DNA of 33,882 nucleotides from Clostridia bacterium (GTDB lineage Bacteria; Bacillota; Clostridia; Christensenellales; Borkfalkiaceae), in NCBI GenBank assembly GCA_021204625.1, contig JAJPZA010000167.1, positions 1 to 33,882 on the forward strand. Reading direction: 5' to 3'. The position numbers were made by a program, and so were the translations under genes. Each line of letters opens with the position of its first letter. The stretch's first letter is position 1. Of the stretch, positions 3,620 to 27,798 are shown in pieces. Under the pieces are notes generated by a model. That model was not told the origin of the DNA. It saw only the letters and a program-made list of their open reading frames with translations, and did no database searches.

Positions 3620-3624
3620 AAAAA

Positions 3625-10346: not shown

Positions 10347-10393
10347 GCAAATGAACATGCAACGCTTGAAATGAACATTTTTGATGCTCATTT
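10347..10393. promoter_or_regulatory. Operator cluster upstream of GH3 module 1
   Basis: GCAAATGAACA at 10347-10357 and TGAAATGAACA at 10367-10377 are direct repeats exactly 20 bp (two helix turns) apart. TGCTCATTT at 10385-10393 is an inverted AAATGAGCA variant. The cluster ends about 30 bp before the -35 box. The same motif lies upstream of GH3 module 2, GH78, rhaB and the DeoR gene. A DeoR-type repressor or an activator could bind; the assignment is inferred. Confidence 0.7.
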
Positions 10394-10424
10394 CATATGA
10401 GAAATTGCTGTAAAACGACATGGT

Positions 10425-10453
10425 TTGACCATTGCTTTCTCTTTTATTATGGT
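10425..10453 (+). promoter_or_regulatory. Promoter of GH3 module 1
   Basis: TTGACC (10425-10430) and TATGGT (10448-10453) are 17 bp apart. The context GGTTTGACSATT is shared with the promoter of module 2. The implied transcription start near 10460 leaves a leader of about 400 nt, and puts the first leader hairpin at about +107, almost the same as in module 2. Confidence 0.6.
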
Positions 10454-10565
10454 TGATGTGCTTTCATGCAGGAGGTCCGCTGCGGTTTCGCTTTGGATTC
10501 GGCGCATATGGCACAGACCGGCTTTCCAACAGAGCTGGACAACAGTGTGAACAATATGGTTTTAT

Positions 10566-10612
10566 CCAACAGGGGCGCCCCTGTTGGCATGGACTACATG
10601 CGTAGTCCATGC
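10566..10612 (+). ncRNA. Leader RNA element of GH3 module 1: hairpins A and B
   Basis: Hairpin A is a perfect 22-bp palindrome at 10566-10587 (left arm CCAACAGGGGC). Hairpin B follows at once: GCATGGACTAC at 10587-10597 pairs with GTAGTCCATGC at 10602-10612 around a 4-nt loop. The two share base 10587. The leader of GH3 module 2 has the same pair with the same one-base junction, and the stems differ by compensatory changes, which supports selection on the structure. No T-run follows, so it is not a simple terminator. Function unknown. Confidence 0.7.
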
Positions 10613-10861: not shown

Positions 10862-13800
10862 ATGAAAATAAGCAAGCTTATATCGCCTTTCCGCGGTTTG
10901 GCTGGCACTATGGCCGCTTTGCTTGTCCTGTCTGTTGTGGGGTACGGAATCGCAGACACATACAGGGATACGGTGGACGGAGCTCTCGGAACGGAAAGTT
11001 ACGAGATCAGCGTTGATAATCCCAAATACGTGTCAGACTATGATTCCGACAAAGAAATGATGGCGGCGGCAAAGGATATTGCAATCAGGGAAGGAGAGGA
11101 AGGAACGGTCATAATGAAGAATGACAACGGTGCGCTTCCTCTTTCCACAAGCAAGGTCGCTCTTTTCGGTGTGGGCGCATATAATCCATATATGAGCGCG
11201 GCCGGGAATGACGATCAGGTAAAACTTGTGGACGCCCTTGAAAATGCCGGATACACAATTGACCAGAACGTTTCAAATGTATACACTTCCGCAGGCATCA
11301 AGCCCAACACAAGCGTGGGAGACTGGAAGGACACCTTCACAATCAATGAGCGCTCGCTGGATGATCTTCAGGAGCTTTCAGGCGTTTCAACCAGCTGGTC
11401 AGCCACGCTTTCGTCTGACACTACAGCCATATGCGTGTTTACGCGCGGCGGCGGCGAGGGCAATATGTACAAGCCCGGCTCAGCCGTTGACTATAACGGA
11501 CAGCCGGCATCCTCATACTGCGGCAATGATCCGCTTGCCCTTTCGGACATAGAGCTCGGAGTCGTTAAGTCCGCAAAAGAGAAGTGCGGCAAGGTTATCG
11601 TCCTCATCAACTCAGGCAACGCTATGGAAATCGGCGAGATAGCGGCCAGCGGCTCCGCCGAGGCTGACGCCATCGCATACATCGGCGTTCCCAACGATTA
11701 TCAGTTCACGGGAATCGTCAACGTTCTGTCCGGAAAGGACAGCGACGGTAATTTCCTCAATTCAACAGGAGCCCTTTCCAACAGCTACGTGTACAACAAT
11801 CTGTCTGCTCCCGCTACAGTGAACATGGGCGGCGATTATTATTCAGACTATACCCTTGTAAATGCAAATGAGGAGAACGGCTGGGATTCCAGATGGGGCG
11901 AAGGCAAAGAGATTTCAAACGGAATACCGACAAGCTCATTCTCCAGCAAGGATGAAACAGGCCTTGACACATACAGCGGCGGCCAGTACATAGTTGAGGC
12001 AGAGGGAATTTACGTCGGGTACAAGTATTACGAGACAAGGTATTTCGACTCCGTGGCCAACACATCCTACAATGCAAATTCCACAGCAGGCTCCACGGAC
12101 GGACAGGCCTGGAATTACAGCAAAGAGATGCTGTACACCTACGGGTACGGCCTCTCATATCTCGATTATGAGCAGAATATCAAGAGCGTTAACGTGGACA
12201 GGACGCCGAACGGATACACCACGGCCGTTGTGACCGTGACGAACAAGAGCAACACGGACGGAAAGTTCCTTGCCCAGCTGTACGTTCAGCAGCCTTATAC
12301 GGAATATGACAGAACCAATCTTGTGGAGAAGTCTGCCGTGATGTTTTTAAGCTCCGCCAAGGTTGACGTCAAGGCGAACAGCTCGGCTGATGTTGAGATT
12401 TCTGTTCCCACGAAGTATCTTGCAAGCTATGACTCCAACGAGGCTAAGACGTACATCCTGGATGACGGCGATTATCTCTTCACGGCCGCAGCCGGAGCTC
12501 ATGAGGCGGCCAACAACTTCCTCAGCTATCTCGGATATACCGCTGACAGCAGCGCCAGCATGGATGCGGACGGAAAAGGCGCTACGGTTGTCTGGAACGA
12601 CCTGAGCAGCCTGGACGCGACAACATATGCGACTGAGAATGACACTGTCATAACAAACGTCGCAGACAATGCAGACCTCAATTACTGGCTTCCCGGAACA
12701 GTCACATATCTTTCCAGGCAGGACTGGGAGAGCACATATCCCGTAAATTACAACGAAGTCAATGACGGCCAGGGAGTGTCTCTTGCGAAGAGCTCAAAGA
12801 AGGACGAGTGGATTTCCGAGATCCGAGGAGAGCAGTACACGATAAACAACAACGGACCCGAGGCTGAAAACGTAGACGGGCTCGACGGAGAGTACAGGTT
12901 CAATCAAGAGCAGATTGGCGCTCTCTCATATGAGGATTTCACGAACATCAATTCAGATTACTGGAACGGACTTGTGGCACAGATATCCGTCAATGAGGCC
13001 ATAGGAGCAGTTCTTCACGGCGGATCTTCATCAGACACGCTTACTTATGTGGATAATCCCGTCGTAAAGCAGTACGAAGGGCCTACAGGCGTTCAGACCA
13101 CATACACCTGGACTGAGTACGAGACGGATTCGGACGGCAACTATGTATGTGACGAAGACGACAATCCTATAGTGGCTGAAACCGGAACATACAAGTTCTA
13201 CATCAATTCACAGACTCTTCTCAGTTGCAGCTTCAATCCGGATCTTGCATATGAGTGGGGGCTTGTCGAAGGCAACTCATCACTTTGGACACAGGCTTAC
13301 GATTACTGGGGCTCCGGCCTTACGCTCAACAGGACTCCATACAACGGCCGCAATTACGAGTACATCTCTGAAGACCCCATGCTCACTAATGTCATCGGAT
13401 ACGGCGTCATAAAGGGAACGGTTGAGAAGGGAACGATCTGCGGCCCCAAGCACATGGGATTCAATGACCAGGAGCACAACCGCAACGGCGTGGCTGAATA
13501 CATGACAGAACAGAAGTTCAGGGAGACCGACCTTCGCGGATTCCAGGGAGCTTTGGATGACGCCAACGGACTGGCAGTCATGATAGCGTTCAACCGCATT
13601 GGACCCGTGAACGCATCCCACCATGCCGGAATGCTTCAGACCATACTCCGCGGAGAGTGGGGATTCAAGGGCCTTATCTCAACGGACATGTGCAATGACG
13701 TTTATTATTTCGACGGCCCTTCAATGATAATGGCCGGCATCACTCAGGTTGCAGATTTCGCCGCAGGCAACAGCTATATCAGTAGTGACGGAACCAACTA

Positions 13801-14065
13801 TGACAAATCCGATTCCAACTGGACGTACATAACAATCAACAATGTGAAGAACGACGCGACCCTTGTAAACCAGGCGCGCGAGAACCTCAAGTACCAGCTG
13901 TACGCCTTCGCGAACAGCGCAATTCTCAACATGTCCACAACCAGGGTTACTCCTTGGTGGGAGACCGCATTCAAGACGCTCACAATCGTCAGTGCCGTTC
14001 TCTTCGCAGTATTCGGTGCCGCATGGATTGTATGCGAGCTGATTCCCAGAAAGAAGGAGGACTGA
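10862..14065 (+). CDS. Membrane-tethered GH3 glycosidase, permuted domain order (copy 1)
   Basis: Protein of 1067 aa, probably a surface beta-glucosidase-type enzyme. A helix at about 12-31 follows a Lys/Arg-containing N-terminus, and a second helix at about 1036-1061 is followed by PRKKED, so both ends should be cytoplasmic with the enzyme outside. Domain order is reversed relative to most GH3 enzymes: the GH3 C-terminal-type domain comes first (GTVIMKNDNGALPL, about 78-92), then a fibronectin-III-like domain (about 440-545), then the catalytic barrel (NGRNYEYISEDPML, GPKHMGFNDQEHNR) with candidate nucleophile D942 in GFKGLISTDM. Reversed order is known in some Ruminococcus and Butyrivibrio GH3 enzymes. 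ATG 10862 follows AAGGAGG. The next gene starts 1 bp after the stop. Substrate is not determined. Confidence 0.88.
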   Translation: MKISKLISPFRGLAGTMAALLVLSVVGYGIADTYRDTVDGALGTESYEISVDNPKYVSDYDSDKEMMAAAKDIAIREGEEGTVIMKNDNGALPLSTSKVALFGVGAYNPYMSAAGNDDQVKLVDALENAGYTIDQNVSNVYTSAGIKPNTSVGDWKDTFTINERSLDDLQELSGVSTSWSATLSSDTTAICVFTRGGGEGNMYKPGSAVDYNGQPASSYCGNDPLALSDIELGVVKSAKEKCGKVIVLINSGNAMEIGEIAASGSAEADAIAYIGVPNDYQFTGIVNVLSGKDSDGNFLNSTGALSNSYVYNNLSAPATVNMGGDYYSDYTLVNANEENGWDSRWGEGKEISNGIPTSSFSSKDETGLDTYSGGQYIVEAEGIYVGYKYYETRYFDSVANTSYNANSTAGSTDGQAWNYSKEMLYTYGYGLSYLDYEQNIKSVNVDRTPNGYTTAVVTVTNKSNTDGKFLAQLYVQQPYTEYDRTNLVEKSAVMFLSSAKVDVKANSSADVEISVPTKYLASYDSNEAKTYILDDGDYLFTAAAGAHEAANNFLSYLGYTADSSASMDADGKGATVVWNDLSSLDATTYATENDTVITNVADNADLNYWLPGTVTYLSRQDWESTYPVNYNEVNDGQGVSLAKSSKKDEWISEIRGEQYTINNNGPEAENVDGLDGEYRFNQEQIGALSYEDFTNINSDYWNGLVAQISVNEAIGAVLHGGSSSDTLTYVDNPVVKQYEGPTGVQTTYTWTEYETDSDGNYVCDEDDNPIVAETGTYKFYINSQTLLSCSFNPDLAYEWGLVEGNSSLWTQAYDYWGSGLTLNRTPYNGRNYEYISEDPMLTNVIGYGVIKGTVEKGTICGPKHMGFNDQEHNRNGVAEYMTEQKFRETDLRGFQGALDDANGLAVMIAFNRIGPVNASHHAGMLQTILRGEWGFKGLISTDMCNDVYYFDGPSMIMAGITQVADFAAGNSYISSDGTNYDKSDSNWTYITINNVKNDATLVNQARENLKYQLYAFANSAILNMSTTRVTPWWETAFKTLTIVSAVLFAVFGAAWIVCELIPRKKED

Positions 14066-14066
14066 T

Positions 14067-14567
14067 ATGAACTTTGTAAAGAAGCAGACAGCCAGCACAT
14101 GGATTACGCTCATAGTGCTGATTCTTGCGCTCGTTTCCGTAATCATTTACGGCGTCAACGTTTCAAGTACCGGATATTTTAAATCCATAACGTCGTCCAC
14201 CGTCGTGGTAAGCTCTGTCTTTGAGCTTATCATCCTTGTCGCGATACTCGTTCTGGCCCAGTTCAAGCTGAAGGGATACCTAGGACAGGTAGAGAATCTC
14301 ATCGTGGGAGCTCTCAAGGTCGTAGCCGCATTCCTTCCCATCCTTGCCCTTCTCGCATTCGTGAACGTGCGCGTTGACGGCCTCGGATACGTGCTTGGCT
14401 CCAGCGAGGAAATCAAGGACACAATCCAGACGGCTGAGAACATGTCCTCTTGCTATACAGCAATAGCCGGATTCGTATTCTATTTCATCACCGCGATTGT
14501 CGCCATCGTAGGAGCGTTCTTCAGGCCCTACGGAAAAGCCGGCGAAACCGCCAAGAATGCCGCATAG
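14067..14567 (+). CDS. Four-helix membrane protein paired with GH3 (copy 1)
   Basis: Integral membrane protein of 166 aa, family not recognised. It begins MNFVKKQTASTWITLIV and has about four hydrophobic helices (roughly 12-30, 48-67, 80-100 and 130-150), with a short polar segment in the last loop and a basic, Ala-rich C-terminus after FFRPYGK. It starts 1 bp after the GH3 stop behind an AAGGAGG site and is surely co-translated with it. A paralogue of 168 aa sits in the same position behind GH3 copy 2, with the same MNF(V/I)KKQT start and AFFRPY end. A role as an assembly, anchoring or chaperone partner of the dual-anchored GH3 enzyme is inferred only from this repeated pairing. Confidence 0.85.
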   Translation: MNFVKKQTASTWITLIVLILALVSVIIYGVNVSSTGYFKSITSSTVVVSSVFELIILVAILVLAQFKLKGYLGQVENLIVGALKVVAAFLPILALLAFVNVRVDGLGYVLGSSEEIKDTIQTAENMSSCYTAIAGFVFYFITAIVAIVGAFFRPYGKAGETAKNAA

Positions 14568-14599
14568 CGTTATATCCGTTCATACAGCTGAATGAACTT

Positions 14600-14645
14600 A
14601 AATCCGCCCATGCCAGTCCCCCCGCTGGCGGGCGGATTTCTTTTG
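14600..14645 (+). terminator. Terminator of GH3 module 1
   Basis: AAATCCGCC (14600-14608) pairs with GGCGGATTT (14631-14639), with an inner GCCAG/CTGGC stem. A CTTTTG tract follows. It ends the GH3 and membrane-protein transcript 33 bp after the stop codon. Confidence 0.85.
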
Positions 14646-14846
14646 CCCGCCGCATGCGTGCCAGACATCCGGCGTCTCCGGATATTTGTTTTCCGGGTTT
14701 TTGACGCCGCCGCATGCGGGCGCCAAATTATAATGCCGTCAGCCAGGAGCCCGGCCCGTCCGGTTCTTTTCCCAAGGGGCTTGCACGGACTTTTTGCAAT
14801 GCGTATAATTATGTTGCTGGTTCGCAAAAATTGTGTTTTTGATTCA
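14646..14846. other. Gap between module 1 terminator and module 2 control region
   Basis: No gene or strong signal is seen. The stretch is GC-rich with several GCCGC/GCATGC-type words but no long stem followed by T. Confidence 0.45.
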
Positions 14847-14918
14847 AAATGAGCATGAAATGAACAAAATGAGCAGAAGTGATGAATACGTAGGTGTGAA
14901 ATAAACAGCAAATGAACA
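14847..14918. promoter_or_regulatory. Operator cluster upstream of GH3 module 2
   Basis: Three direct repeats AAATGAGCA (14847-14855), AAATGAACA (14858-14866) and AAATGAGCA (14867-14875) are 9-11 bp apart, about one helix turn. A full GCAAATGAACA is at 14908-14918, directly in front of the -35 box. The motif matches that of module 1. Spaced direct repeats of this kind are usual for DeoR-family operators; the binding protein is inferred. Confidence 0.72.
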
Positions 14919-14922
14919 CGGT

Positions 14923-14951
14923 TTGACGATTATATAGCCATATTATATATT
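14923..14951 (+). promoter_or_regulatory. Promoter of GH3 module 2
   Basis: TTGACG (14923-14928) and TATATT (14946-14951) are exactly 17 bp apart, a strong sigma-A-type match. The implied start near 14958 gives a leader of about 340 nt. Confidence 0.75.
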
Positions 14952-15061
14952 GTCTACGCTGATATGCAGGCAGGATTTCGAGCGGACATTTTGAAATGTT
15001 GCGCATACAGGCACGGCGGTTTCCCGCGGGGGCGGGAACCGGAACAACTGAACAACAGGAA

Positions 15062-15106
15062 CCAAAGGGGTACCCCTTTGGCACGGACTGCAGGTGCAGT
15101 CCGTGC
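15062..15106 (+). ncRNA. Leader RNA element of GH3 module 2: hairpins A and B
   Basis: Hairpin A is a perfect 20-bp palindrome at 15062-15081 (left arm CCAAAGGGGT). Hairpin B is GCACGGACTGC (15081-15091) paired with GCAGTCCGTGC (15096-15106), with a 4-nt loop. Compared with module 1, B has two compensatory swaps (T-A to C-G and A-T to G-C). A has one (C-G to T-A) and loses one whole base pair. Position from the predicted transcription start (about +105) matches module 1 (+107). Confidence 0.7.
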
Positions 15107-15227
15107 ATGCACTCTATTTGCCATCTGTTTTTGCGGGGTACATGAAACAGGCTCCTGACAGTGTCCGGGCGGCTGCCGGCTGAAAAACGGCATTTGGAAC
15201 ATTCAACGGCATCCGGGCCTCTTCAGC

Positions 15228-15252
15228 CGTCTGCAGGGGGGTAATGCAGACG
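15228..15252 (+). promoter_or_regulatory. Leader hairpin C, module 2
   Basis: CGTCTGCA (15228-15235) pairs with TGCAGACG (15245-15252). It is followed by ACAGATTTCATTTTTCAATAAGTAAGGAGG, the conserved ribosome-binding region shared with module 1. The stem sequence is unrelated to hairpin C of module 1 but its position is the same. Confidence 0.5.
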
Positions 15253-15297
15253 ATAGAACCCACAGATTTCATTTTTCAATAAGTAAGGAGGTTAAAG

Positions 15298-18200
15298 ATG
15301 AAATTCGGCTCTTGGATTTCGCCTCTTCGCGGCGTGACTGCCGTAATGGCTGCCATTATGGCCCTGTCCGTTACAGGCTACGCTCTCGCCGATTCATGGA
15401 GAGGCTCCGTGGATGACATGCTGGGTACAAGCAGTTATGAGATTGATGACAGCGGCGTTGCTGAGACAGAGTACAAGTCCACATACAGTACAGCAGCTGA
15501 AATGATGCAGGCAGCCAAGGATATATCCATCAAAGAAGGACAGGAAGGAACAGTAGTCATGAAGAATGACAATAGTGCTCTTCCTATTCAATCCGGAACA
15601 ACGCTTGCTTTCTTCGGGCTGGCTTCATATGGCACATACGAAGCATCAGATGACCTGAACGGAGGAAACGCCGATGCTGTGACAAGTGTCTATGCAGCAT
15701 TTGAGGATGCCGGTTTTACTGTCAACGAAAAGCTGCAGGAAGTTTACAACGCAGCTATGAACAGGCATCAGGAAGAAGTTGATCATACTTACTACACCTC
15801 ACTTGACTGGGTTTATGACATAGGACCCCAGACAACTGTAGGCGACATGACCACCTTCAACAACAATGAGCTCAGCGTTGACGACATCATCAAGGCTGCC
15901 AAAGCAAAGGACAGTTCCATCACCGTGAACTCCACAAGCGATTTGGGCATAACGAAAGATGAAACAGTCGGCATCGTAACCATCGCAAGGGCCGGCGGCG
16001 AGTCCAACACATACCTGCCTCTGTCCCAGGCTAATCTGGATTCAAGCAGTGAGGATTATCTTCCTTCATCTGCAAAAGCGGTTTTAAGCTCAGACGGGAA
16101 GACCATTACATATGAGGGAACCACAAAGGACGCTCTGGAGCTTTCTGACAGTGAGCTTGCTGTCATCAAGACAGCAAAGAGCCTGTGCAGCAAGGTCATC
16201 GTGCTTCTCAACACAAGCAATGACATGATGATCAGCAGCATCACAACCAGCGGGGATTACGAGGCAGACGCCATCGCATACATCGGCGTTCCCAACGACT
16301 ATCAGCTCACCGGCGTCGTGAACGTGCTTGACGGCACAGCCAACTCGACAGGCGCTCTTACAGACACCTATGTCGTAAACAACGAGTCTCTGCCTTCAAT
16401 GCAGAACTTCGGCGGTGATTACTACAGCGACTACACGCTTGTAAACGCCAGCTCCACAAACGGCTGGGATTCCAGATGGGGCGAGGGCGCAGAGATTTCC
16501 AACAAGCCGCCGGTAAACTCATTCTCCGCAAATGATGATACAGGCAACCCTTCATACAGCGGCGGCCAGTACATCGTAGAGGCAGAGGGAATCTACGTAG
16601 GCTACAAGTACTACGAGACCAGATATTATGATTCCATCATGGATGCCTCCGGAACGAGTGCAAACGACAAAGCAGGATCCACAACCGGCAACGCCTGGAG
16701 CTATGATGATGAAGTGGTATATCCTTTCGGATACGGCCAGTCTTATCTGGATTACACACAGGAAGTTGATACCTCTAAAAATTCAGACGGCTTCACTAAC
16801 GGCATTAAGGTTGATAAGCTTGAAAGCGGAGCTATAGATCCGGACGGCTACACAACCGTAGCTGTAAAGGTTACAAACAATACCGATGAAGCAGGATACT
16901 TCCTTGCAGAGCTCTATGTGTCCCAGCCTTACACATCATATGACCAGAACAATGCGGTAGAGAAGTCTGCCATCATGTTCCTCAACTCCAAGAAGGTCAC
17001 AGTTGCAGCCAACAGCTCCCAGACAGTTGAGATCAGCGTGATGACCAAGTATCTCGCAAGCTATGATTATACAACGGCCAATAATAATAACGGCGGATAC
17101 ATCCTGGACTATGGCGTTTACTACTTTACGGCGGCCAACGGCTCACATGAAGCGGTACAGAACGTCATTAAGGAAGTGGACAGCACAAAGCTTTCAGACT
17201 ATACAGGCACAACAGTCGGCATATGGAAATATGGTGAAGGAACCGAAACCACTCCCGATACAACAACATTCGCAACAGACAACGGCACAACAATCAGCAA
17301 CGCTGTTGAAGACTATTCAGACATGAACAGCTGGATCAGCGGATCCGTAAAGTATCTCACACGCTCAGACTGGACTACATTCCCCATCAACTACAATGAG
17401 CAGTATTACAGCAATGACACACTGACAACAGGTGCCATATCCCTTGCAAAGAGCACCAAAACATCCGACTGGGTAGCAGAGCTCAGAGGACAGACATATA
17501 CAATTACTGAGACAGAAGAGCAGGTTGAGAATGTGGACGGCATTGACCTCGGGTATGAGTTCAACATTGAGCAGCTCAATGCAATAAACGAGACAACCGG
17601 CCGCGCAAACTACATGGACATTGACAACGATTACTGGACCAACCTGGTAGCTCAGCTTTCAGTCAATGAGGCAGTAGGCGCCATAATACACGGCGGCTCA
17701 CAGACAGATAACCTGAAGTACGTGAACAACCCCGTGATTTCCCAGCACGAAGGAGTCAACGGATTCTCCGGAACATCCGCGGAAGGCTATAACTACAATG
17801 TAAGCTCACAGACACTTCTCGGATCAAGCTTCAACCCTGACCTCGCTCTTGAGTGGGGCGAAGTGGAAGGCAACTCCGGACTGTGGCTGCAGTATTACAA
17901 CCTCTGGGGCACCGGACTTACACAGCGCAGAACACCGTACAACGGACGCAACTACGAGTACATCTCCGAGGATCCCATGCTCACAAACGCAATGGGCTAT
18001 GGCATCATCAAGGGAACGCTTGAGTTCGGTATCCTTTGCGGACCCAAGCACATCGGATTCAACGATCAGGAACACAACCGCAACGGCATCGCCGCATACA
18101 TGAACGAGCAGAAGTTCAGAGAGACGGACCTTAGAGGATTCCAGGGCGGCATGGAAGACGCCAACGGACTTGCCGTAATGGTAGCTTTCAACCGTATAGG

Positions 18201-18666
18201 ACCCATGAACGCCTGCCACAGCCAGGGAATGCTGAAGCAGATCATGCGCGGCGAGTGGGGCTACAAGGGGCTCATCTCCACAGACATGATGAATGACTGC
18301 TACTACTTCAACCCCGAGTCAATCGTAATGGCAACGGTAACCCAGGTTGCAGACTTCTCAACCAACGACAGCTACATTTCAGCAACGAACAGCTACAATA
18401 TGTCAGACGCAAGCTGGTCATACCTCACAATCAACAAGGTAAAGGTGGACAACAACCTTGTCACCCAGGCCCGCGAGGACATGAAGTATCAGTTATATGC
18501 ATTCGCCAACAGTGCAGTGCGCGGTGTCGAGACAGAATCTGTGACTCCTTGGTGGGAAGCAGCTCTCATCGCCGTCATCGCAGTCAGCGCAACGCTGTTC
18601 GCAGTCGGCGCCGTCGCTCTCGTCACATGCACTGTATTCAAAAAGATAAAGAAGGAGGAGGACTAA
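15298..18666 (+). CDS. Membrane-tethered GH3 glycosidase, permuted domain order (copy 2)
   Basis: Protein of 1122 aa, a clear paralogue of copy 1 along its whole length. It has an N-terminal helix (about 12-31), a GH3 C-type domain first (GTVVMKNDNSALPI), a fibronectin-III-like region, then the barrel with NGRNYEYISEDPML, GPKHIGFNDQEHNR and candidate nucleophile D996 in GYKGLISTDM. A C-terminal helix at about 1088-1113 precedes KKIKKEED. The extra length over copy 1 is mainly insertions in the first domain (about residues 115-200). Divergence in that domain suggests a different substrate or linkage. ATG 15298 follows TAAGGAGG. The stop is 1 bp before the next ATG, as in copy 1. Confidence 0.88.
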   Translation: MKFGSWISPLRGVTAVMAAIMALSVTGYALADSWRGSVDDMLGTSSYEIDDSGVAETEYKSTYSTAAEMMQAAKDISIKEGQEGTVVMKNDNSALPIQSGTTLAFFGLASYGTYEASDDLNGGNADAVTSVYAAFEDAGFTVNEKLQEVYNAAMNRHQEEVDHTYYTSLDWVYDIGPQTTVGDMTTFNNNELSVDDIIKAAKAKDSSITVNSTSDLGITKDETVGIVTIARAGGESNTYLPLSQANLDSSSEDYLPSSAKAVLSSDGKTITYEGTTKDALELSDSELAVIKTAKSLCSKVIVLLNTSNDMMISSITTSGDYEADAIAYIGVPNDYQLTGVVNVLDGTANSTGALTDTYVVNNESLPSMQNFGGDYYSDYTLVNASSTNGWDSRWGEGAEISNKPPVNSFSANDDTGNPSYSGGQYIVEAEGIYVGYKYYETRYYDSIMDASGTSANDKAGSTTGNAWSYDDEVVYPFGYGQSYLDYTQEVDTSKNSDGFTNGIKVDKLESGAIDPDGYTTVAVKVTNNTDEAGYFLAELYVSQPYTSYDQNNAVEKSAIMFLNSKKVTVAANSSQTVEISVMTKYLASYDYTTANNNNGGYILDYGVYYFTAANGSHEAVQNVIKEVDSTKLSDYTGTTVGIWKYGEGTETTPDTTTFATDNGTTISNAVEDYSDMNSWISGSVKYLTRSDWTTFPINYNEQYYSNDTLTTGAISLAKSTKTSDWVAELRGQTYTITETEEQVENVDGIDLGYEFNIEQLNAINETTGRANYMDIDNDYWTNLVAQLSVNEAVGAIIHGGSQTDNLKYVNNPVISQHEGVNGFSGTSAEGYNYNVSSQTLLGSSFNPDLALEWGEVEGNSGLWLQYYNLWGTGLTQRRTPYNGRNYEYISEDPMLTNAMGYGIIKGTLEFGILCGPKHIGFNDQEHNRNGIAAYMNEQKFRETDLRGFQGGMEDANGLAVMVAFNRIGPMNACHSQGMLKQIMRGEWGYKGLISTDMMNDCYYFNPESIVMATVTQVADFSTNDSYISATNSYNMSDASWSYLTINKVKVDNNLVTQAREDMKYQLYAFANSAVRGVETESVTPWWEAALIAVIAVSATLFAVGAVALVTCTVFKKIKKEED

Positions 18667-18667
18667 T

Positions 18668-19174
18668 ATGAACTTCATTAAAAAGCAGACTGTCAGTTCA
18701 TGGCTCACCCTCGTTGCTTTCATACTCGCAATCGTTGCTGTGGCAATGTTCGCATCCGGCAACAACAGTGCCGTTGCCGCAGGACTGTTCGGAACATTTG
18801 ACACAAGCGACCTCATGGCCGAGTCCGTCATTGAGATAATCTTCCTTGCGGCAATCATCGCCCTTTCAGAGTTCAAGCTCGGCGGAATCATCGGCGATAT
18901 CTTTGAATGGGTTGTATGGGCGCTCAAGATTCTTGTCTGCATCCTCCCCGTTCTCGCACTCATAGGCTTCCTTGGCATGAGAGTCCAGGGCCTTGCAAAC
19001 CTCTACTTCTCAGATGCGAACATACAGGCTACAATGCAGACAGAGGAGAACCTCGCGGCAGCATCCCAGGCCATTGCCACAGCCATCATATACGGCGTGA
19101 CAGCAGTCGTCGCTGTAGTCGCTGCTTTCTTCAGACCCTACAAGAAGGTCAAGGCTTCAGCCGCCGTGGCATAA
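18668..19174 (+). CDS. Four-helix membrane protein paired with GH3 (copy 2)
   Basis: Integral membrane protein of 168 aa, paralogue of the protein at 14067-14567. It begins MNFIKKQTVSSWLTL and shows about four hydrophobic helices, a conserved (E/Q)FKLxG segment after helix 2, a LPVLALIGF helix, a TEEN-containing loop and the AFFRPY end. An AAGGAGGAGG site inside the end of the GH3 gene drives translation. The family is not recognised. Retention of the pairing after duplication argues for a functional link to the GH3 protein. Confidence 0.85.
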   Translation: MNFIKKQTVSSWLTLVAFILAIVAVAMFASGNNSAVAAGLFGTFDTSDLMAESVIEIIFLAAIIALSEFKLGGIIGDIFEWVVWALKILVCILPVLALIGFLGMRVQGLANLYFSDANIQATMQTEENLAAASQAIATAIIYGVTAVVAVVAAFFRPYKKVKASAAVA

Positions 19175-19619: not shown

Positions 19620-22196
19620 ATGAGAATCACAGATTTCACAACGGAGAATCTTTCATCCGGATGCGTCACGGACAGCAGGGCGCCCCGCTTTTCATTCAAG
19701 GCGGAGAGCGCGGTGAAGGGCGCTTATATCGAGGACGCTGAGATTTCTGTCAACGGCTGGGAAAAGCACACAAAGGATCAGATACTTGTTCCGTACGAGG
19801 GCAAGGCTTTGGAGCCCTTCAAGGAATATACGGCAAAACTCGTCGTAAGGAACAATGCCAGGGAGGAGGCCTGCGCGGAGACCACGTTCCGCACCGGAAG
19901 GCTGGACACGCCCTGGAAGGCTGAATGGATTACAAACGGCTCATACGTCTTCAAGGAGAAGAAGGTGTCGCCGGCTCCCATGACCTTCCGCAAAAAAGTC
20001 TCCGTCTCAAAGAAGGTGGCATCCGCCATGGTTTATGCCACGGCCATAGGGCTTTACATATTTGAGGTTAACGGAAAGCAGGCCGGGGACATGTACCTCA
20101 ACCCCGGATTCACTTCATACAAGCATACGCTGCAGTACCAGACATATGACGTCACGGATCTTCTTAAAGAGGACAACGATTTTGTCGTGACAGTTTCCGG
20201 CGGATGGGCGGTAGGAGCTTTCGTTTTCACCAGAAAGAACAGGATAACGGCTCCCAGGCAGGCCCTTCTCATGGAAATCCGCATAGCGTATGAGGACGGC
20301 ACGGAGGATGTCATAGGCACGGATTCAAGCTGGCTTGTTACCATGGACGGCCCCTTCAGGGCGGCGTGCATCTATGACGGCGAGACCTATGACGCCACTG
20401 TGGACCTGGATTCCATAAAATGGACCATGGCATCCATTGAGAAAGTGAAGATAAATCCGCAGATTGTGGCAGGGTTCGGGGATCCCATCAGGGCCCATGA
20501 GGTCTTTAAGCCCGTGGCCGTATCCCATTGCGGCAATGAGACCATATATGATTTCGGCCAGAACTTTGCGGGAGTCATCCGCGCGAAGATAAACGGCAGG
20601 GCCGGGCAGACCGTCACCTTCCGCCATGCGGAAGTGCTGGACAAGGACGGGGCCCTGTTCACGCAGATACTGCGCTCCGCGAAAGCCACGGCAATATATA
20701 CGTGCAAAGACGGGGAGCAGACCTATTCCCCCAGGCTCACGTACATGGGATTCAGGTACGTCGGTGTGTCCGGAATAGATGATGAGAACATTGAGATGGA
20801 AGCCGTGGCCCTTTATTCGGACATGAAGAGGGTGGGCGACTTCGAGTGCTCGGACCCGCTCATAAACAGGCTGAACAAGAACATCCTCTGGAGTGCAAAA
20901 TCCAACCTCATGGATCTTCCCACGGACTGCCCGCAGAGGGATGAGAGGATGGGCTGGACGGGAGACATAGCATTGTTCGCCCCCACAGCGTGCTTCAACT
21001 TCGATACATCCCGCTTCTATGACAAGTGGCTTTGCGACCTCCGTTCGGAGCAGCACCGCTCCGGCGGCGTGAACAGCACGGTTCCCGCGCAGGGGTACGG
21101 CTTCCCGGCCACAATGCCTCCCATTGCCGTGGATTTCTGGGGAGACGCCGCGGTCCTCGTTCCCTGGGCCGAGTACCAGTCCAGAGGGGACGTGAAAATC
21201 CTTGAGAAGAGCTACGAGTCCATGAAAAAGTACGTAAAGGCGTGCAAGTTCTGGGCGGGGCTCTTCAGCTTCGGCAAGCGCAGGTACATCTGGAAGAACC
21301 TCAACTTCCTGCATTACGGAGACTGGGTGTCCCCGGACGCCCCTAAAATGTCCCAGTGGCAGGGCAGGCACAAGTACACGGCCACAGCCTCGCTGCAGCA
21401 TACAAGCTCCATAATGGCCGAAGCCGCAAAAATCCTGGGCAAAGCCAAGGACGCGGAGTATTTCGGCAGGATGGCAGAGCGCACCGCGGACGCGTACGTC
21501 TCCGTCTTCACGGACGGCAGCGGAAAGCTCAAGAAGGAAGAGTTCCAGACGGCATACGTCCTTCCGCTGGCCTTTGGCATGTTCCCGGAGGGCCAGAAGG
21601 AAAAGGCCGTGGAAAACCTTAAGTCCCTTGTGGAAAAGGGCGGCTGCCGCATAGGCACGGGATTCCCCGGAACGCCTTTCATACTCAGCGCCCTGGCGGA
21701 CAACGGCGCGGCGGACGTGGCCTTCAAAATGCTCACGTGCACGGACTGCCCTTCATGGCTGTATGAAGTGAAATCCGGCGGAACAACCATCTGGGAGCGC
21801 TGGGACGGCCTCAATCCGGACGGGTCCGTGAAGCTTCCGGATGACGGCACGGACTGCATGATATCCTTCAACCATTACGCGTCCGGAGCCGTCGGCAATT
21901 TCCTGTACACCCGCATAGCGGGCATAGAGATGACAAAGCCAGGCTACAGGGAATTCAACATAAAGCCCTTGGTAGGCGGCGGCATCACATACGCTTCGGC
22001 CACGCACGAGTGTCCGTACGGCGAAATCTCCTCAAAATGGAAGATAGAGGACGGCCTCTTCACCCTGGCCGTGAAAGTGCCCATGGGCACCACCTGCGAC
22101 ATCGTCCTTCCGGACGGCACGGAGCGCTGCGTGGACAGCGGCGAATACATGTACACATGCCGGATGCCCGCGGAGCCTGCAGAGGCTGCGGAGTGA
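19620..22196 (+). CDS. Alpha-L-rhamnosidase, GH78
   Basis: Enzyme of 858 aa that should hydrolyse terminal alpha-L-rhamnosyl residues. N-terminal beta-sandwich domains (about 1-320) include WKAEWIT and GLYIFEVNGK, typical of bacterial rhamnosidases. The (alpha/alpha)6 catalytic barrel starts near 330 and carries TDCPQRDERMGWTGD with D436, E442 and D449, and later TTIWERWDG with E726, the expected acid/base residues. There is no signal peptide, so it should act in the cytoplasm on imported rhamnosides. ATG 19620 follows AAGGAG at a 9-nt distance. It is preceded by its own promoter and operators and followed by rhaD 300 bp later. Confidence 0.93.
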   Translation: MRITDFTTENLSSGCVTDSRAPRFSFKAESAVKGAYIEDAEISVNGWEKHTKDQILVPYEGKALEPFKEYTAKLVVRNNAREEACAETTFRTGRLDTPWKAEWITNGSYVFKEKKVSPAPMTFRKKVSVSKKVASAMVYATAIGLYIFEVNGKQAGDMYLNPGFTSYKHTLQYQTYDVTDLLKEDNDFVVTVSGGWAVGAFVFTRKNRITAPRQALLMEIRIAYEDGTEDVIGTDSSWLVTMDGPFRAACIYDGETYDATVDLDSIKWTMASIEKVKINPQIVAGFGDPIRAHEVFKPVAVSHCGNETIYDFGQNFAGVIRAKINGRAGQTVTFRHAEVLDKDGALFTQILRSAKATAIYTCKDGEQTYSPRLTYMGFRYVGVSGIDDENIEMEAVALYSDMKRVGDFECSDPLINRLNKNILWSAKSNLMDLPTDCPQRDERMGWTGDIALFAPTACFNFDTSRFYDKWLCDLRSEQHRSGGVNSTVPAQGYGFPATMPPIAVDFWGDAAVLVPWAEYQSRGDVKILEKSYESMKKYVKACKFWAGLFSFGKRRYIWKNLNFLHYGDWVSPDAPKMSQWQGRHKYTATASLQHTSSIMAEAAKILGKAKDAEYFGRMAERTADAYVSVFTDGSGKLKKEEFQTAYVLPLAFGMFPEGQKEKAVENLKSLVEKGGCRIGTGFPGTPFILSALADNGAADVAFKMLTCTDCPSWLYEVKSGGTTIWERWDGLNPDGSVKLPDDGTDCMISFNHYASGAVGNFLYTRIAGIEMTKPGYREFNIKPLVGGGITYASATHECPYGEISSKWKIEDGLFTLAVKVPMGTTCDIVLPDGTERCVDSGEYMYTCRMPAEPAEAAE

Positions 22197-22320
22197 CATC
22201 CGCCGGGGAAACGTGCCTGCCGCATTGAGGATCAACGCAGCCATATGGCACGACCAGAGCCGGTATGCCGGTCATGTGCTCCTGAGAAGAAAGGGCTCCG
22301 GCCGGCGGACATGAGCCGCA

Positions 22321-22372
22321 CGGAGCCTCGTTACAGAGCCTCATGGCAGAGCCTCATGACAGAGCCTCACTC
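22321..22372. repeat. 13-bp tandem repeat, four copies, upstream of rhaD
   Basis: The unit CAGAGCCTCATGR occurs four times in tandem (22321, 22334, 22347, 22360), the outer copies slightly diverged. It lies in the 300-bp gap between GH78 and rhaD, about 125 bp before the rhaD start. A GCCGG-rich stretch before it forms a long-range inverted repeat (CCGCCGG near 22201, CCGGCGG near 22303). It may be an array of binding sites or a slippage product. Confidence 0.85.
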
Positions 22373-22497
22373 ACATCAGTAATAATCAATAATACTTACA
22401 AAGCATGCAAGGCTTCCTTCGGCGCGCATGCGCCGGGGATGCCCGGATATATAAGAATACATGCAAGCAAAATTATACCAGCAGGAGAAAGATGATT

Positions 22498-23346
22498 ATG
22501 GGATTCAAAGAAAGCATGAAAAGCCTTACGCGCAAGAATATTCTCACGGCGCCCTTCATGAAGGAGTTTTGCGCCACAGCGTCCAACATGTACCGTCTCG
22601 GATGGGATGAGAGGAACGGAGGCAACATAAGCCTTCTTCTGGACAATGCGGAGCTGGACGAGTACCTTGATTTGGATCATGTGGAAAGGACCATCCCCAC
22701 AGGGTTCAGGGCGGATGCTTTGATTGGCAAGTGCTTCCTGGTGACAGGCACAGGGAAGTATTTCAAGAATGTTGAGAAGGATCCGGAGACAAACCTCGGC
22801 GTCATCCGCATCGCAAAGGACGGAGAGACGGCGGAGCTTCTGTGGGGGTACAAGGACGGAGGAAAGTTTACGTCAGAGCTGCCCGCCCATCTCATGAGCC
22901 ACATGGCGCGCCTTTCCGTGAACCCGGAGAACAGGGTTGTCATGCACTGCCATCCCACATACACTCTTGCCATGAATTTCGTCCACGAGCTGGATGAGAA
23001 GAAGTTCACCCATACCCTCTGGGAAATGTGCACGGAGTGCATAGTCGTGTTCCCGGACGGCGTGGGCGTTCTTCCCTGGATGCTCTGCGGCACCAACTCC
23101 ATAGGCGAGGCCACGGCCGAAAAGATGAAGGAGTTCCGCCTCGTCATATGGGGCATGCATGGCATATACGGCGCAGGCAAGGACCTGGACGAGACGTTCG
23201 GCCTCATCGAGACGGTTGAAAAGGCCGCCCAGATTTACATCCTCACCATGGGCAGGCCCAGGATCAACACCATAACGGACGAGGCCATGGTCCAGCTTGC
23301 AGATTACTTCAAGGTGGACTGCCGCAAGGACTTCCTCAACCTCTGA
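22498..23346 (+). CDS. rhaD: Rhamnulose-1-phosphate aldolase
   Basis: Class II aldolase of 282 aa that splits L-rhamnulose 1-phosphate into DHAP and L-lactaldehyde. It follows E. coli RhaD closely: GWDERNGGN, the phosphate-binding FLVTGTGKYFKNV, TSELPAH, zinc-ligand VMHCHPT with two His, TECIVVFPDGVG and a later zinc His in WGMHGIYGAG. ATG 22498 is placed 10 nt after AGGAG (22483-22487); ATG 22492 two codons earlier is nearly as good. No promoter is obvious, but AT-rich TAATAATCAATAATAC at about 22379-22394 may contain the -10 region. It converges with the DeoR gene. Confidence 0.93.
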   Translation: MGFKESMKSLTRKNILTAPFMKEFCATASNMYRLGWDERNGGNISLLLDNAELDEYLDLDHVERTIPTGFRADALIGKCFLVTGTGKYFKNVEKDPETNLGVIRIAKDGETAELLWGYKDGGKFTSELPAHLMSHMARLSVNPENRVVMHCHPTYTLAMNFVHELDEKKFTHTLWEMCTECIVVFPDGVGVLPWMLCGTNSIGEATAEKMKEFRLVIWGMHGIYGAGKDLDETFGLIETVEKAAQIYILTMGRPRINTITDEAMVQLADYFKVDCRKDFLNL

Positions 23347-23363
23347 TCATGACTTCAGTTTTC

Positions 23364-23416
23364 GCAAATGACAAATACAGCAGGCCCCAAAGGCCTGCTG
23401 TATGATGTTCATTTGC
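23364..23416. terminator. Bidirectional two-part hairpin between rhaD and the regulator gene
   Basis: A perfect 12-bp stem, ATACAGCAGGCC (23375-23386) with 23392-23403 and a 5-nt loop, is enclosed by a second stem GCAAATGA (23364-23371) with TCATTTGC (23409-23416). It lies 20 bp after the rhaD stop, between convergent genes. The right arm contains TGTTCATTTGC, an exact reverse complement of the GCAAATGAACA motif, so the DNA could also be a binding site. No T-run follows. Confidence 0.7.
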
Positions 23417-23435
23417 AAAGCTGGTTTTTATACCT

Positions 23436-23467
23436 CCCGCGTCACGCGGGCGGAATGTGAAATATTC
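23436..23467. other. Small hairpin and recurring 15-mer downstream of rhaD
   Basis: CCCGC-GTCAC-GCGGG (23436-23450) is a short hairpin. It is followed by GAATGTGAAATATTC (23453-23467), identical over 15 bases to the ppdK upstream region at 7141-7155. No gene lies in 23347-23600. Confidence 0.5.
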
Positions 23468-23600
23468 CCGCCCGTATTGACAGCAACCCCCTTTTTGCCT
23501 ACAATATATACGCAAAAACATGCCCGCCGCAAAAGGCTGCCGCCATGTTTTCCGGCCTCCGGTCCCGGATTCACAAAACGGATTCATGGAAGGGAAACGC

Positions 23601-24353
23601 TTAAAAGTTGGTTATGACAAGGTTCTTGTCCAGCTTTTTCAGCGGCTCTGCCTCCTTGTTTGAGGCGTTGGTTATCACGAGGTCATAGTACTGGAGAGGA
23701 GCGGTGCAGTACGGGGCTGTCTGGCCTATCTTGGTGCGGTCGAAGATGAGTATCCTCTTTTTGGCCCGCTCCATGGCAATCTTCTTTATCTCCATGGCCT
23801 CAAGCGAGGATTCGTACGAGCCGCGGGCGTCCGCGCCTGCGCATGAGGTTACGGCAATGTCATAGTTGAACTCCCCGAGCATTCTGGCCGTAAGGCTTCC
23901 GTGAACGGCCGTCGTGTTGTATTTCACTTCCCCGCCCGGGAGTACTATTGAGACGTTGTCCTGCTGCGAGGCAGCAAGGGCTATCTGCAGGCCGTTTGTA
24001 AACACAGTCTTGTTCCTGAGGTTCAGCCTTTCCACCAAAGCCAGGCATGTGGAGGAGTTGTCTATGAACACCGTGGAAAAATCCGGCATGTTGTGGGTGG
24101 CAATGTACGCCACCATGCTTTTCTCCTCCGGGTTCTTGGCCTGGCGAAGATAGATGGACACTTCATCTGCCTTCTCCACATAGATCACGCCTCCGTGCGT
24201 CCTCTTCACAATTCCGGCCTTCTCCATCTCCGTGAGGTCCCTTCGGATAGTCGCCGGGCTCACGTACAGGATCTTGGCAAGCTCCTCGACCGAAGCCGCC
24301 TTGTTGTCCTTGAGAAGGTTCATTATATCCTTAGTCCTGTCACCGATTTTCAT
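23601..24353 (-). CDS. DeoR family transcriptional regulator
   Basis: Regulator of 250 aa. The N-terminal winged helix has RTKDIMNLLKDNKAASVEELA followed by ILYVSPATIRRDLTEMEKAG, the DeoR signature, and then the typical RTHGGV. The C-terminal sugar-phosphate sensor domain runs from about 75 to 240 and includes ATHNMPDFSTVFIDNSSTC and IVLPGGEV. ATG 24353 is preferred over ATG 24362 because AGGGGGG lies 9 nt upstream of it and directly touches the other. It sits inside the rhamnose locus on the opposite strand; no AraC-type RhaR/RhaS is present, so it is the likely controller. Candidate sites of its own lie at 24376-24411. The effector would be a phosphorylated sugar such as rhamnulose 1-phosphate (inference). 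Confidence 0.92.
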   Translation of the reverse strand: MKIGDRTKDIMNLLKDNKAASVEELAKILYVSPATIRRDLTEMEKAGIVKRTHGGVIYVEKADEVSIYLRQAKNPEEKSMVAYIATHNMPDFSTVFIDNSSTCLALVERLNLRNKTVFTNGLQIALAASQQDNVSIVLPGGEVKYNTTAVHGSLTARMLGEFNYDIAVTSCAGADARGSYESSLEAMEIKKIAMERAKKRILIFDRTKIGQTAPYCTAPLQYYDLVITNASNKEAEPLKKLDKNLVITNF

Positions 24354-24375
24354 GCGGCGCATCCCCCCCTGGCCA

Positions 24376-24411
24376 TGTTCATTTCCAGGCTCATCTTACC
24401 CCGAATGAGCA
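24376..24411. promoter_or_regulatory. Candidate autoregulatory operators in front of the DeoR gene
   Basis: TGTTCATTT (24376-24384), GGCTCATCT (24388-24396) and GAATGAGCA (24403-24411) are variants of the AAATGARCA motif, two in one direction and one inverted. They lie just upstream of the regulator start and between the divergent regulator and rhaB genes. Confidence 0.6.
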
Positions 24412-24530
24412 GGATTGTCAACAGGCGTCATGGGCCCGCGCCCCGGGCGCCCCCGAGCCTTTTCAGTGAAAAGCGGTGCATATAAAGCGTTTTTGCCGCA
24501 GATCCGCCTTAAACAGGGCGTGCAAAAAGA

Positions 24531-24566
24531 TTTGCGCGCAAATGCGCGAATGAATCCAAATGAACA
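24531..24566. promoter_or_regulatory. Operator region upstream of rhaB
   Basis: TTTGCGCGCAAA (24531-24542) is a perfect 12-bp palindrome related to the sites at GH78 and rhaA. It is followed by GAATGAATC and CCAAATGAACA (24556-24566), two direct copies of the other motif about 10 bp apart. A possible -10 TATAAA is at 24481-24486, but its -35 box is poor. No gene lies between 24363 and 24656. Confidence 0.65.
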
Positions 24567-24656
24567 GAACACCCGCGCTGCGGCGCCCCTGCGATGCAGG
24601 CGGGGCCGTTAACGGAAGACACAAAAATACCATCCACACAAGGTTCAAGGGCAGTT

Positions 24657-25976
24657 ATGTTAGAGTATTTTCTTGCGATAGACATCGGCGCGTCCAGCGG
24701 AAGGCACATTGTGGGCCGCTGGGACGGAGACAGGATTGAGACGGACGAAGTGTACAGGTTCCCCACAGGCGTGTGCCGCAAGGACGGATGCCTGGAGTGG
24801 GACATAGACCGTCTCTTTGAGTGCGTGGTTTTAGGCATCCGCGAGGCCTTCACGAAGCACCCCGGAATAAAGAGCCTGGCCATAGACACCTGGGCGGTGG
24901 ACTACGTTCTTATGGACGAAGAGAACCAGCCCATAAAGCCCTGCTACGCGTACAGGGACTTGAGGACCGAGAAGGTCATAGACGAAGTGCACTCAATCGA
25001 GCCCTTTGAGAAGCTGTACAAAAAGACGGGCATCCAGTTCCAGCCGTTCAACACCATATACCAGCTGTACGCGGACAAGAAGGCAGGGAGGCTGGACAAG
25101 GCCGCAAGCCTTCTCATGCTCCCGGAATACCTTGCGTACCGCCTTACCGGCGAGAGGCGCCGCGAGTACACGAACGCCACGGCCACCGGCCTTGTGAACG
25201 CAGAGACCGGGGATTATGACAGGGAAATCACGGACGCCCTCGGGCTTCCCGGAAGGTTCTTTGAAAAGCCCGTCATGCCCGGCACCGCCGCAGGCAGGCT
25301 TAAGAAAGGCATAGCGGAATATGTGGGAGGCAACTGCAATGTCGTAATGTGCGCCACCCATGACACCGCCAGCTCCGTGGAGGGAATGGACATAGAGGGA
25401 GACAACCCGTACATCTCCTCCGGCACATGGTCACTGCTTGGCATCAAGGTTCCCAAGGCCATAACCACGGACGAAAGCCTGAAGGCCAACTTCACAAACG
25501 AGGGCGGCGTGGGATACGTCCGCTACCAGAAGAATATCATGGGGATGTGGATAATTAACGAGCTCAAGAAGGACATCTGCCCCTTCCTGTCATTCCCGGA
25601 GATTGTGGCGCTTGCGAAGGCAAGCGGATTCTCCGAGACCGTGGACGTGAACTCCGAGACCTTCCTCTCTCCCATGAACATGAAGAAGGCCTTTGACGAC
25701 ACCCTTAAGACCAGGCCCGCCTGCGTCGGAGACTATTTCCGCTGCGCCACGGCATCCCTGGCGCAGGGGTACAAAAAGGCCCTCGAGGATCTTTCCGCGA
25801 ACACCGGCAAGACCTTTGAAAAGCTCTACATATACGGCGGCGGCGCGAAGAACACCCTTTTGAACGAGATGACCCAGGAGGCCTGCGGCCTGCCCGTCAT
25901 CGCCCGTCCCATAGAGGCCAGCGCGCTCGGCAACCTCAAGGTGCAGATGAGGGCATACTACAAGAACAGGCTGTAA
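24657..25976 (+). CDS. rhaB: Rhamnulokinase
   Basis: FGGY-family kinase of 439 aa that phosphorylates L-rhamnulose at C1. The N-terminal ATPase motif is FLAIDIGASSGRHIVG. AIDTWAVDYVLMD and YRDLRT match RhaB rather than xylulo- or glycerol kinases. The second domain has MCATHDTASSVEG, YISSGTWSLLG and the ADENOSINE-type GGGAKN segment. The frame is open further upstream but the family start is MLEYFLAID at 24657, with AAGGGC 5' of it. It is divergent from the DeoR gene, separated by operators, and followed by a 300-bp gap before rhaA. Confidence 0.95.
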   Translation: MLEYFLAIDIGASSGRHIVGRWDGDRIETDEVYRFPTGVCRKDGCLEWDIDRLFECVVLGIREAFTKHPGIKSLAIDTWAVDYVLMDEENQPIKPCYAYRDLRTEKVIDEVHSIEPFEKLYKKTGIQFQPFNTIYQLYADKKAGRLDKAASLLMLPEYLAYRLTGERRREYTNATATGLVNAETGDYDREITDALGLPGRFFEKPVMPGTAAGRLKKGIAEYVGGNCNVVMCATHDTASSVEGMDIEGDNPYISSGTWSLLGIKVPKAITTDESLKANFTNEGGVGYVRYQKNIMGMWIINELKKDICPFLSFPEIVALAKASGFSETVDVNSETFLSPMNMKKAFDDTLKTRPACVGDYFRCATASLAQGYKKALEDLSANTGKTFEKLYIYGGGAKNTLLNEMTQEACGLPVIARPIEASALGNLKVQMRAYYKNRL

Positions 25977-25985
25977 TGCCGCAAT

Positions 25986-26088
25986 CCGTTCCCTATTATT
26001 CCGTTCCCTATTATATTATCCTATTATATTTTTATATTATACGGATATATTATTATATTATACGGACAGGCGGAACGGACAGGCGGAG
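25986..26088. repeat. Mosaic of short tandem repeats between rhaB and rhaA
   Basis: CCGTTCCCTATTAT(T/A) is repeated with a 15-bp period (25986-26015). TATATTATACGGA occurs at 26033-26045 and 26054-26066. CGGACAGGCGGAR is duplicated in tandem (26063-26088). The AT-rich part could contain rhaB termination or rhaA promoter signals, but no clear hairpin with T-run is present. Slippage is likely here. Confidence 0.8.
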
Positions 26089-26241
26089 CTTCCGGCATGG
26101 CAGATGCGGGCCATTCGGCCCGGACCCGGATGCGGGAAAGCATATTCCGGTCCTTTTTGGCCCGGAGACCTTCCGGCGGAACGGGTTTTCCCCCGGCTCC
26201 CGGAGCAGACTGCGAACGGGGGAGGACAAAACATGAATACA

Positions 26242-26254
26242 TTTGCGGCGCAAA
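26242..26254. promoter_or_regulatory. Palindromic operator upstream of rhaA
   Basis: TTTGCGGCGCAAA is the exact reverse complement of the site within the GH78 promoter. It lies 22 bp before the rhaA ATG, so a bound protein would block transcription or the start of the transcript. Confidence 0.6.
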
Positions 26255-26276
26255 GGCCGCAGAGGCGTAATATAAT

Positions 26277-27524: not shown

Positions 27525-27540
27525 TGCGCCGGTTCCTGTA

Positions 27541-27710
27541 AATCCGGCATTATCCGGCTCCCGGATTTCCGGGATTATGCCGCCTGCTTTCCGGCATTGC
27601 ATTTCCGGCATTATATTACAATATATTAATAGGTTGACTGAACAGCCCCTTCGGGCCCGGCCCGGCAATCCGGGCGGCCGCTCCGGGGGCGGCCCTTTGC
27701 CCGCGGCGCA
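27541..27710. other. rhaA-fucO gap: CCGGCATTAT repeats and GC-rich hairpins
   Basis: TTTCCGGCATT occurs twice 14 bp apart (about 27589-27614), with further TCCGGCATTAT copies before it. GGCCGC...GCGGCC near 27675-27696, followed by CTTTG, is a possible rhaA terminator. The remainder up to 27797 shows no gene. TGAAATTTCA (about 27767) is a 10-bp palindrome in front of the fucO promoter. Confidence 0.5.
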
Positions 27711-27798
27711 TTGTGAACGCTGGATGTAGTTCATGGAACATTGCAAAAATTTCTATGACAAAAAATGAAATTTCACAATCATTATGTGACATTATATA

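Follow-up and report, generated by a model that had tools for sequence, protein, structure and literature searches.

Gene pairs of a permuted GH3 glycosidase with helices at both ends and a four-helix membrane protein in a Clostridia bacterium

Two gene pairs are found side by side in a 33,882-nucleotide stretch from a Clostridia bacterium (contig JAJPZA010000167.1 of assembly GCA_021204625.1; the whole stretch is called the window below). Each pair encodes an enzyme of glycoside hydrolase family 3 (GH3) with a permuted domain order and, directly after it, a small four-helix membrane protein, here called the partner. Each pair probably represents a two-subunit exo-glycosidase that is held in the membrane. 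At the level of sequence, the adjacency of the two genes, a fusion between them and the agreement of their trees point to such a complex, whose GH3-partner contact, stoichiometry, activity and substrate are predicted. GH3 is a large and well studied glycosidase family, the members of which are usually handled as soluble single-chain enzymes.

The gene pairs and the permuted enzyme

The first pair consists of GH3-1 (10862..14065, forward strand, 1067 amino acids), defined by its open reading frame (ORF), Pfam, hydropathy and alignment, and small-1 (14067..14567, forward strand, 166 amino acids). The second pair consists of GH3-2 (15298..18666, forward strand, 1122 amino acids), a paralogue of GH3-1, and small-2 (18668..19174, forward strand, 168 amino acids). 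A single spacer base (14066 and 18667, respectively) separates each GH3 stop codon from the ORF of the partner, and the AAGGAGG-like ribosome-binding site of each small gene, read by eye, lies inside the last GH3 codons. The two copies are 57% identical in the GH3 and 44% identical in the small protein.

The Pfam domains of GH3-1 follow each other in reversed order: Glyco_hydro_3_C (residues 82-294), Fn3-like (471-541, above the cut-off) and the Glyco_hydro_3 N-domain (787-944). The same reversed order is found in GH3-2, at residues 85-370, 538-593 (Fn3-like, below the cut-off) and 809-998. Helix calls for the window proteins were made by hydropathy alone. They place hydrophobic helices at residues 13-31 and 1040-1058 of GH3-1, at 7-25 and 1091-1109 of GH3-2, and four helices in each small protein. 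An earlier note on this DNA had described two paralogous GH3s of reversed domain order with a helix at either end, each followed, 1 bp past its stop, by a four-helix protein of roughly 167 amino acids, and this description is borne out by the Pfam order, the hydropathy and the ORF lengths.

The reversed domain order is common to the window GH3s and the permuted beta-glycosidases of the GlyA1 type (PDB 5k6l-5k6o; PMC5104943), and the sandwich, FnIII and barrel succession of that subfamily is present in both window copies. Alignment places the acid/base E199 of GH3-1 on GlyA1 Glu-143 and its nucleophile D942 on Asp-709; as expected for a permuted GH3, E199 lies in the sandwich and D942 in the barrel. 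Furthermore, R830, K863, H864 and R874 of GH3-1 align with the GlyA1 subsite residues Arg-597, Lys-630, His-631 and Arg-641, whereas E765 and F910 stand opposite GlyA1 Asp-532 and Tyr-677, the E765/Asp-532 position being at the edge of the alignment. GlyA1 differs from the window GH3s in having an extra C-terminal domain where they have a helix, and it was purified in plain buffer. Word searches of the GlyA1 paper find "membrane" once (a filter) and do not find "anchor" or "secret" (PMC5104943).

The scanned loci contain 99 GH3 ORFs of the permuted type with a length of 850 amino acids or more; the catalytic Glu is kept in all 99 and the catalytic Asp in 96. One of the three Asp exceptions is ended by the end of its contig, another (locus L011) has Cys, and the third (L130) has Thr, which may be misaligned. 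Helices are found at both ends of 95 of the 99; two of the other four, in which the gene is cut or split, have no C-terminal helix and two have no N-terminal helix above the threshold. Averaged over 95 GH3s, the outer flanks of both helices are enriched in positive residues, which corresponds to an N-in, C-in arrangement, and the catalytic part should therefore face the outside.

Two further GH3 ORFs are unusual. The permuted GH3 at 5461-8688 of L011, in which the nucleophile Asp is replaced by Cys and the Lys-His pair is lost, has no adjacent partner and, judging by its sequence, is a probable pseudo-enzyme. A GH3-matching ORF of 2238 amino acids (L228 8127-14843) adjoins a partner gene and has helices at residues 31-49, 1032-1050 and 1142-1160.

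Association of the partner with the GH3

A profile of the partner was searched in relatives, across the order, in the family of genome G044, and in samples of the phylum and of the class. The candidates scored per genome were at most 15 order-wide, nine in the phylum sample, 13 in the class sample and three for the GH3 profile; as only part of the candidates was scored in some genomes, absences outside the organism's own genus are not exhaustive. The profile matches in seven of the 21 relatives (two of them, G001 and G012, by chance), in 18 of 248 genomes order-wide (one, G097, by chance), in 16 of 61 genomes of the G044 family and, weakly, in one of 397 other genomes of the phylum sample. Three genomes outside the order match in the class sample, two of them credibly. 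Stretches were fetched for every match from the relatives, order-wide, class-sample and G044-family searches.

Nearly all partner-profile ORFs of the fetched loci (122/126, made up of 84/86, 38/39 and 0/1) adjoin or overlap a GH3 ORF of the permuted type that has the same orientation, and none of these 122 has a GH3 within 350 bp on the other strand. Of the adjacent GH3 ORFs, 112 are of full length (850 amino acids or more, with a profile score of 655 bits or higher) and 10 are fragments; both helices are present in 107 of the 112. In one of the four exceptions (L062) the C-terminus of a GH3 truncated at the contig end lies before the partner, in a different frame. L161, a decayed locus at a contig end, and L219, at a contig edge, each contain a partner with no abutting GH3. 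The 126th ORF, in L184 of G687, is a weak match (22.9 bits; 25.2 bits in the genome search) with no GH3 in 16 kb and was taken as chance. Other matches away from GH3 genes that were taken as chance are those of G001 and G012 (internal stops), of G020:C4 (96 bases), of G574 (22.7 bits, no GH3 in the 3.3-kb locus L168) and of G097 (23.1 bits, three stops). Among the first 86 ORFs, 11 came from loci chosen by their GH3, and the genome-wide partner search recovers the same ones. The pair is found in four families of the order and in two outside it; in L182 and L183, both from outside the order, the GH3 is followed by the partner. The earlier note had stated that its proposal would fall if the small protein were found mostly away from GH3 genes, and this is not the case in the genomes searched.

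Both gene orders occur. The partner is encoded downstream of the GH3 in 52 of the 77 pairs and upstream of it in the other 25 (the partner ORF at L130 14146 being counted for two GH3s), and 50 of the 52 downstream partners start no more than 20 bp from the GH3 stop. On the GH3 tree the gene order changes four times, compared with at least 16 times in 200 random labelings. The GH3 and partner trees have 40 of 74 splits in common, compared with at most two in 200 random trials, and the distances of the two proteins correlate at 0.70 over the 77 pairs and at 0.85 for the ten pairs from this genome. In the GH3 tree (support 0.998) and in the partner tree (0.902) alike, the window copies group as sisters, which indicates that the two-gene unit was duplicated as such and supports the earlier suggestion that the pairing survived duplication. 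In G044 the two genes are fused into one ORF of 1196 amino acids, which consists of four helices followed by the GH3 N-helix, the ectodomain and the C-helix. By helix count, an outside position of the enzyme in this fusion requires that the first GH3 helix remain in the membrane.

The assembly of this organism (2.84 Mb in 233 contigs, 94% complete, 5.35% contaminated) contains 30 GH3 N-domain matches, which were assigned to 22 permuted-type genes, three canonical ones (on contigs C197, C171 and C221) and one fragment (C4:10056-10409, 271 amino acids, one stop) that was excluded from the 22. There are 14 partner-profile matches, 11 of which adjoin one of the 22 permuted GH3s. The remaining three are next to GH3s that are truncated at contig ends; in one case the GH3 is recognisable from nothing but its C-terminal sequence. 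In four genomes of 1.7-2.0 Mb, G152, G044, G232 and G165, the GH3 N-domain matches number 50, 34, 32 and 31, respectively.

The best Pfam match of small-1 is MARVEL (PF01284), which is below the cut-off (17.8 compared with 32.8 bits) and found in one of 28 partner members. No Pfam family matches more than two of the 28 members, no solved chain matches the partner profile at E <0.1, and Foldseek with the partner model gave no match at E <=0.001; rows of G protein-coupled receptors (GPCR) in its output were regarded as chance helix matches. The alignments used for structure prediction had four and five rows and consisted of window proteins and proteins of L165 and L166 only. The partner is modelled as a plain bundle of four helices (pLDDT 72.6), whose resemblance to claudin/TARP-type auxiliary subunits is no greater than that of bundles generally; four-helix proteins of the claudin/TARP/MARVEL type are auxiliary subunits of receptors and channels. 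The partner helices have no conserved charged column (>45% K/R or D/E) in 125 aligned homologues, and small residues (G/A/S, 75-89%) are conserved at positions 10, 17, 21, 53 and 94 of the window protein. The charge pattern of the partner is N-in/C-in, as in the GH3 (averages over 71 partners). The ORF L022:1926-2375 was dropped from the partner alignment because Pfam assigns it to 8xMP.

Two partners of G960 (L211 8460-10657; L212 3125-4300) are extended by a fifth helix and by Big_2 domains, which are of the bacterial Ig-like type; both ORFs are cut by contig ends. In the clusters of contigs C4 and C114 and in similar ones, a protein with an N-terminal helix, carrying Listeria-Bacteroides repeats where tested, is encoded between a long GH3 and the partner. 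These variants suggest that the partner may serve surface parts more generally as a membrane base. The C4 and C114 clusters look alike, perhaps due to strain mixture in the assembly. In the clusters of L014, L015 and L020, a long GH3 that resembles a signal-peptide protein is accompanied by a repeat protein, a partner and another GH3.

Proposed complex and alternative explanations

The following arrangement can be proposed for each pair. The permuted GH3 catalytic unit is positioned between two hydrophobic helices and should face the outside. The partner, which is predicted to be N-in/C-in, is encoded directly after the GH3 (elsewhere before it) and is inherited with it; its helices would pack against both anchors of the GH3 and together with them make up a membrane base. 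This base might stabilise, place or orient the enzyme at the cell surface, where the enzyme would trim terminal beta-linked sugars from glycosides, here possibly rhamnosyl-glucosides. A GHKL kinase and a LytTR regulator, which are encoded beside the pair in many related loci, may control it. A structural role, in which the partner packs against the anchors of the GH3, is the most likely one: the lack of conserved charges in its helices, together with the small residues kept there, makes this role preferable to that of a coupled transporter.

Several observations weigh against this arrangement. Eleven of the 22 permuted GH3s encoded in this genome lack a partner beside them (in two cases the contig runs out first), and in L178, from outside the order, a permuted GH3 of 982 amino acids with helices at both ends has no profile-matching partner in 16 kb. 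This GH3 is helix-flanked like those of the window, but has two N-terminal helices. Most loci were picked by partner matches and thus give no frequency for GH3s. The agreement of the trees and of the distances is inflated by the relatedness of the loci, and the G044 fusion is a single case in a single draft assembly. The partner model alone is a generic four-helix bundle, and the AlphaFold2 model of GH3-1, made from five sequences, was discarded (mean pLDDT 43, pTM 0.34). The N-helices of the window copies end in GYGIA-D and GYALA-D, AxA-like motifs that are possible signal-peptidase sites. The earlier note had regarded the small protein as a dedicated partner. It is indeed tied to the GH3, but the pair occurs repeatedly, and the GH3 does not always depend on a partner, as is evident from the unaccompanied half of the set in this genome. 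One gene downstream of the L178 GH3, at 3304-3861, there is a 185-amino-acid four-helix ORF with no partner-profile match.

The motifs just mentioned make cleavage of the N-helix possible in the window copies. If this helix were a signal peptide, the enzyme would be held by its C-terminal helix only and dual anchoring would be wrong, an explanation with a modest chance of being correct. In the fetched loci an [A/S]xA motif is present at the end of the N-helix in six of the eight GH3s longer than 1200 amino acids, but in just 19 of the 90 shorter ones. The juxtamembrane Gly of an LG motif (Gly43) is kept in 83% of partnered compared with 53% of other enzymes, and W1033 in 96% compared with 81%. 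In the G044 fusion the GH3 N-helix comes after four others and so cannot be a plain signal peptide. Of the double anchoring claimed in the earlier note, a helix at each end is called by hydropathy, and an uncleaved N-anchor is putative in the window copies. At the other extreme, the small gene might be a hydrophobic ORF that has nothing to do with the GH3 and is carried along in its operons. Its poor conservation (mean column identity 33% in 12 members and 26% in 28) would fit, but the same-strand adjacency, the two gene orders, the fusion and the matching trees make this extremely improbable, and since the adjacency spans families such an explanation is already hard to hold.

It is also conceivable that the partner functions rather than supports. 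As a permease it could carry the sugar that the GH3 frees straight into the cell (vectorial uptake): the enzyme should face the outside, its product needs import, the genes are closely coupled, and small four-helix transporters of the SMR type exist. The matches to transporters are weak and confined to single members (MFS_1, E 3.4e-5, one of 28; CitMHS, 6.9e-4, L212; Otopetrin, 6.1e-3, L165); they are not common to other members and fit the hydrophobic composition. As the partner helices have no charged column and the window encodes an MFS/GPH-type transporter of its own (29120-31387), a permease is very unlikely. A sensor, in which GH3 and partner would report sugar occupancy to a neighbouring GHKL kinase, is improbable as well. 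In its favour, 25 of 35 GHKL kinases in four genomes precede a GH3 on the same strand, no more than 5.5 kb from the N-domain match (a raw count, from which one below-cut-off GHKL match, G002:C4:121320, was dropped from 36 and canonical-type GH3s were left out), the same is true of six of the seven kinases of this genome, and the regulator, kinase, GH3 and partner are encoded together in L165, L182 and L183. However, there is no GHKL kinase beside the window pair, transcriptional control explains the co-localisation equally well, GH3s without a partner have kinases too (6 of 23 partnerless GH3 rows), and the catalytic residues are conserved as in a working enzyme. There is a small chance that cutting and reporting are combined. 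The GH3-partner complexes would then be sense-and-cleave modules that each cut a glycoside and report it to a dedicated GHKL/LytTR system, and would have been multiplied in some small genomes to cover many glycosides; up to 50 GH3 N-domain matches are present in one 1.8-Mb genome.

Regulation, neighbourhood and significance

A GHKL kinase with HATPase_c_5 and a LytTR regulator adjoin many GH3-partner modules and resemble Agr-like GHKL/LytTR systems. The known systems of this kind respond to peptides, and no link between them and such glycosidases was found in the literature searched. In L165 a regulator, a kinase and a GH2 enzyme are followed by GH3-partner-GH3-partner, a doubling as in the window. 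This locus (IMGVR_UViG_3300027864_000896) is a contig from a viral collection, and its recognised genes are bacterial glycan and regulator genes.

Each window copy has a leader on the forward strand, at 10349..10612 for copy 1 and 14847..15106 for copy 2, which contains AAATGARCA repeats and two abutting palindromes (10566-10587 and 10587-10612; 15062-15081 and 15081-15106). The palindromes are perfect, and their stems differ between the copies by paired base changes. Promoter-like boxes between these elements in the copy 1 leader were read by eye only. The AAATGARCA repeats common to both copies are seven of 17 occurrences in 263 kb. The pattern of the second palindrome was not found beyond the window among the loci fetched up to that search, its matches in L029 and L043 being the window's own sequence, and no Rfam family was found in the window.

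Downstream of the second copy, an L-rhamnose locus (19620..29059), which is context and not part of the module, encodes an alpha-L-rhamnosidase, RhaD, a DeoR-type regulator (reverse strand), RhaB, RhaA and a lactaldehyde reductase. This neighbour, with its alpha-L-rhamnosidase, hints that rhamnosyl-glucosides may be substrates of the window pair. A perfect 15-bp inverted repeat with a 7-nt loop (19282-19318) is located between small-2 and the rhamnosidase gene, and an ORF of 86 amino acids (25976-26236), for which neither Pfam nor NCBIfam gives a match at the thresholds applied, is located between the rhamnulokinase and rhamnose isomerase genes.

Permuted GH3s are already known; the membrane-held form with a partner of its own seems to be undescribed. 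The top results of the open literature searched, a scope that leaves out most subscription journals, contain no description of a membrane-held GH3 with a partner. The earlier note did not recognise the combination as described, and both this literature and the Pfam result for the partner agree with that.

If the proposed arrangement is true, it would represent another way for bacteria to work on surface glycosides, present in many copies in small genomes, and it would provide a role for a nameless membrane protein family. Such GH3s, when cloned without their partner or without their helices, may then be misjudged.

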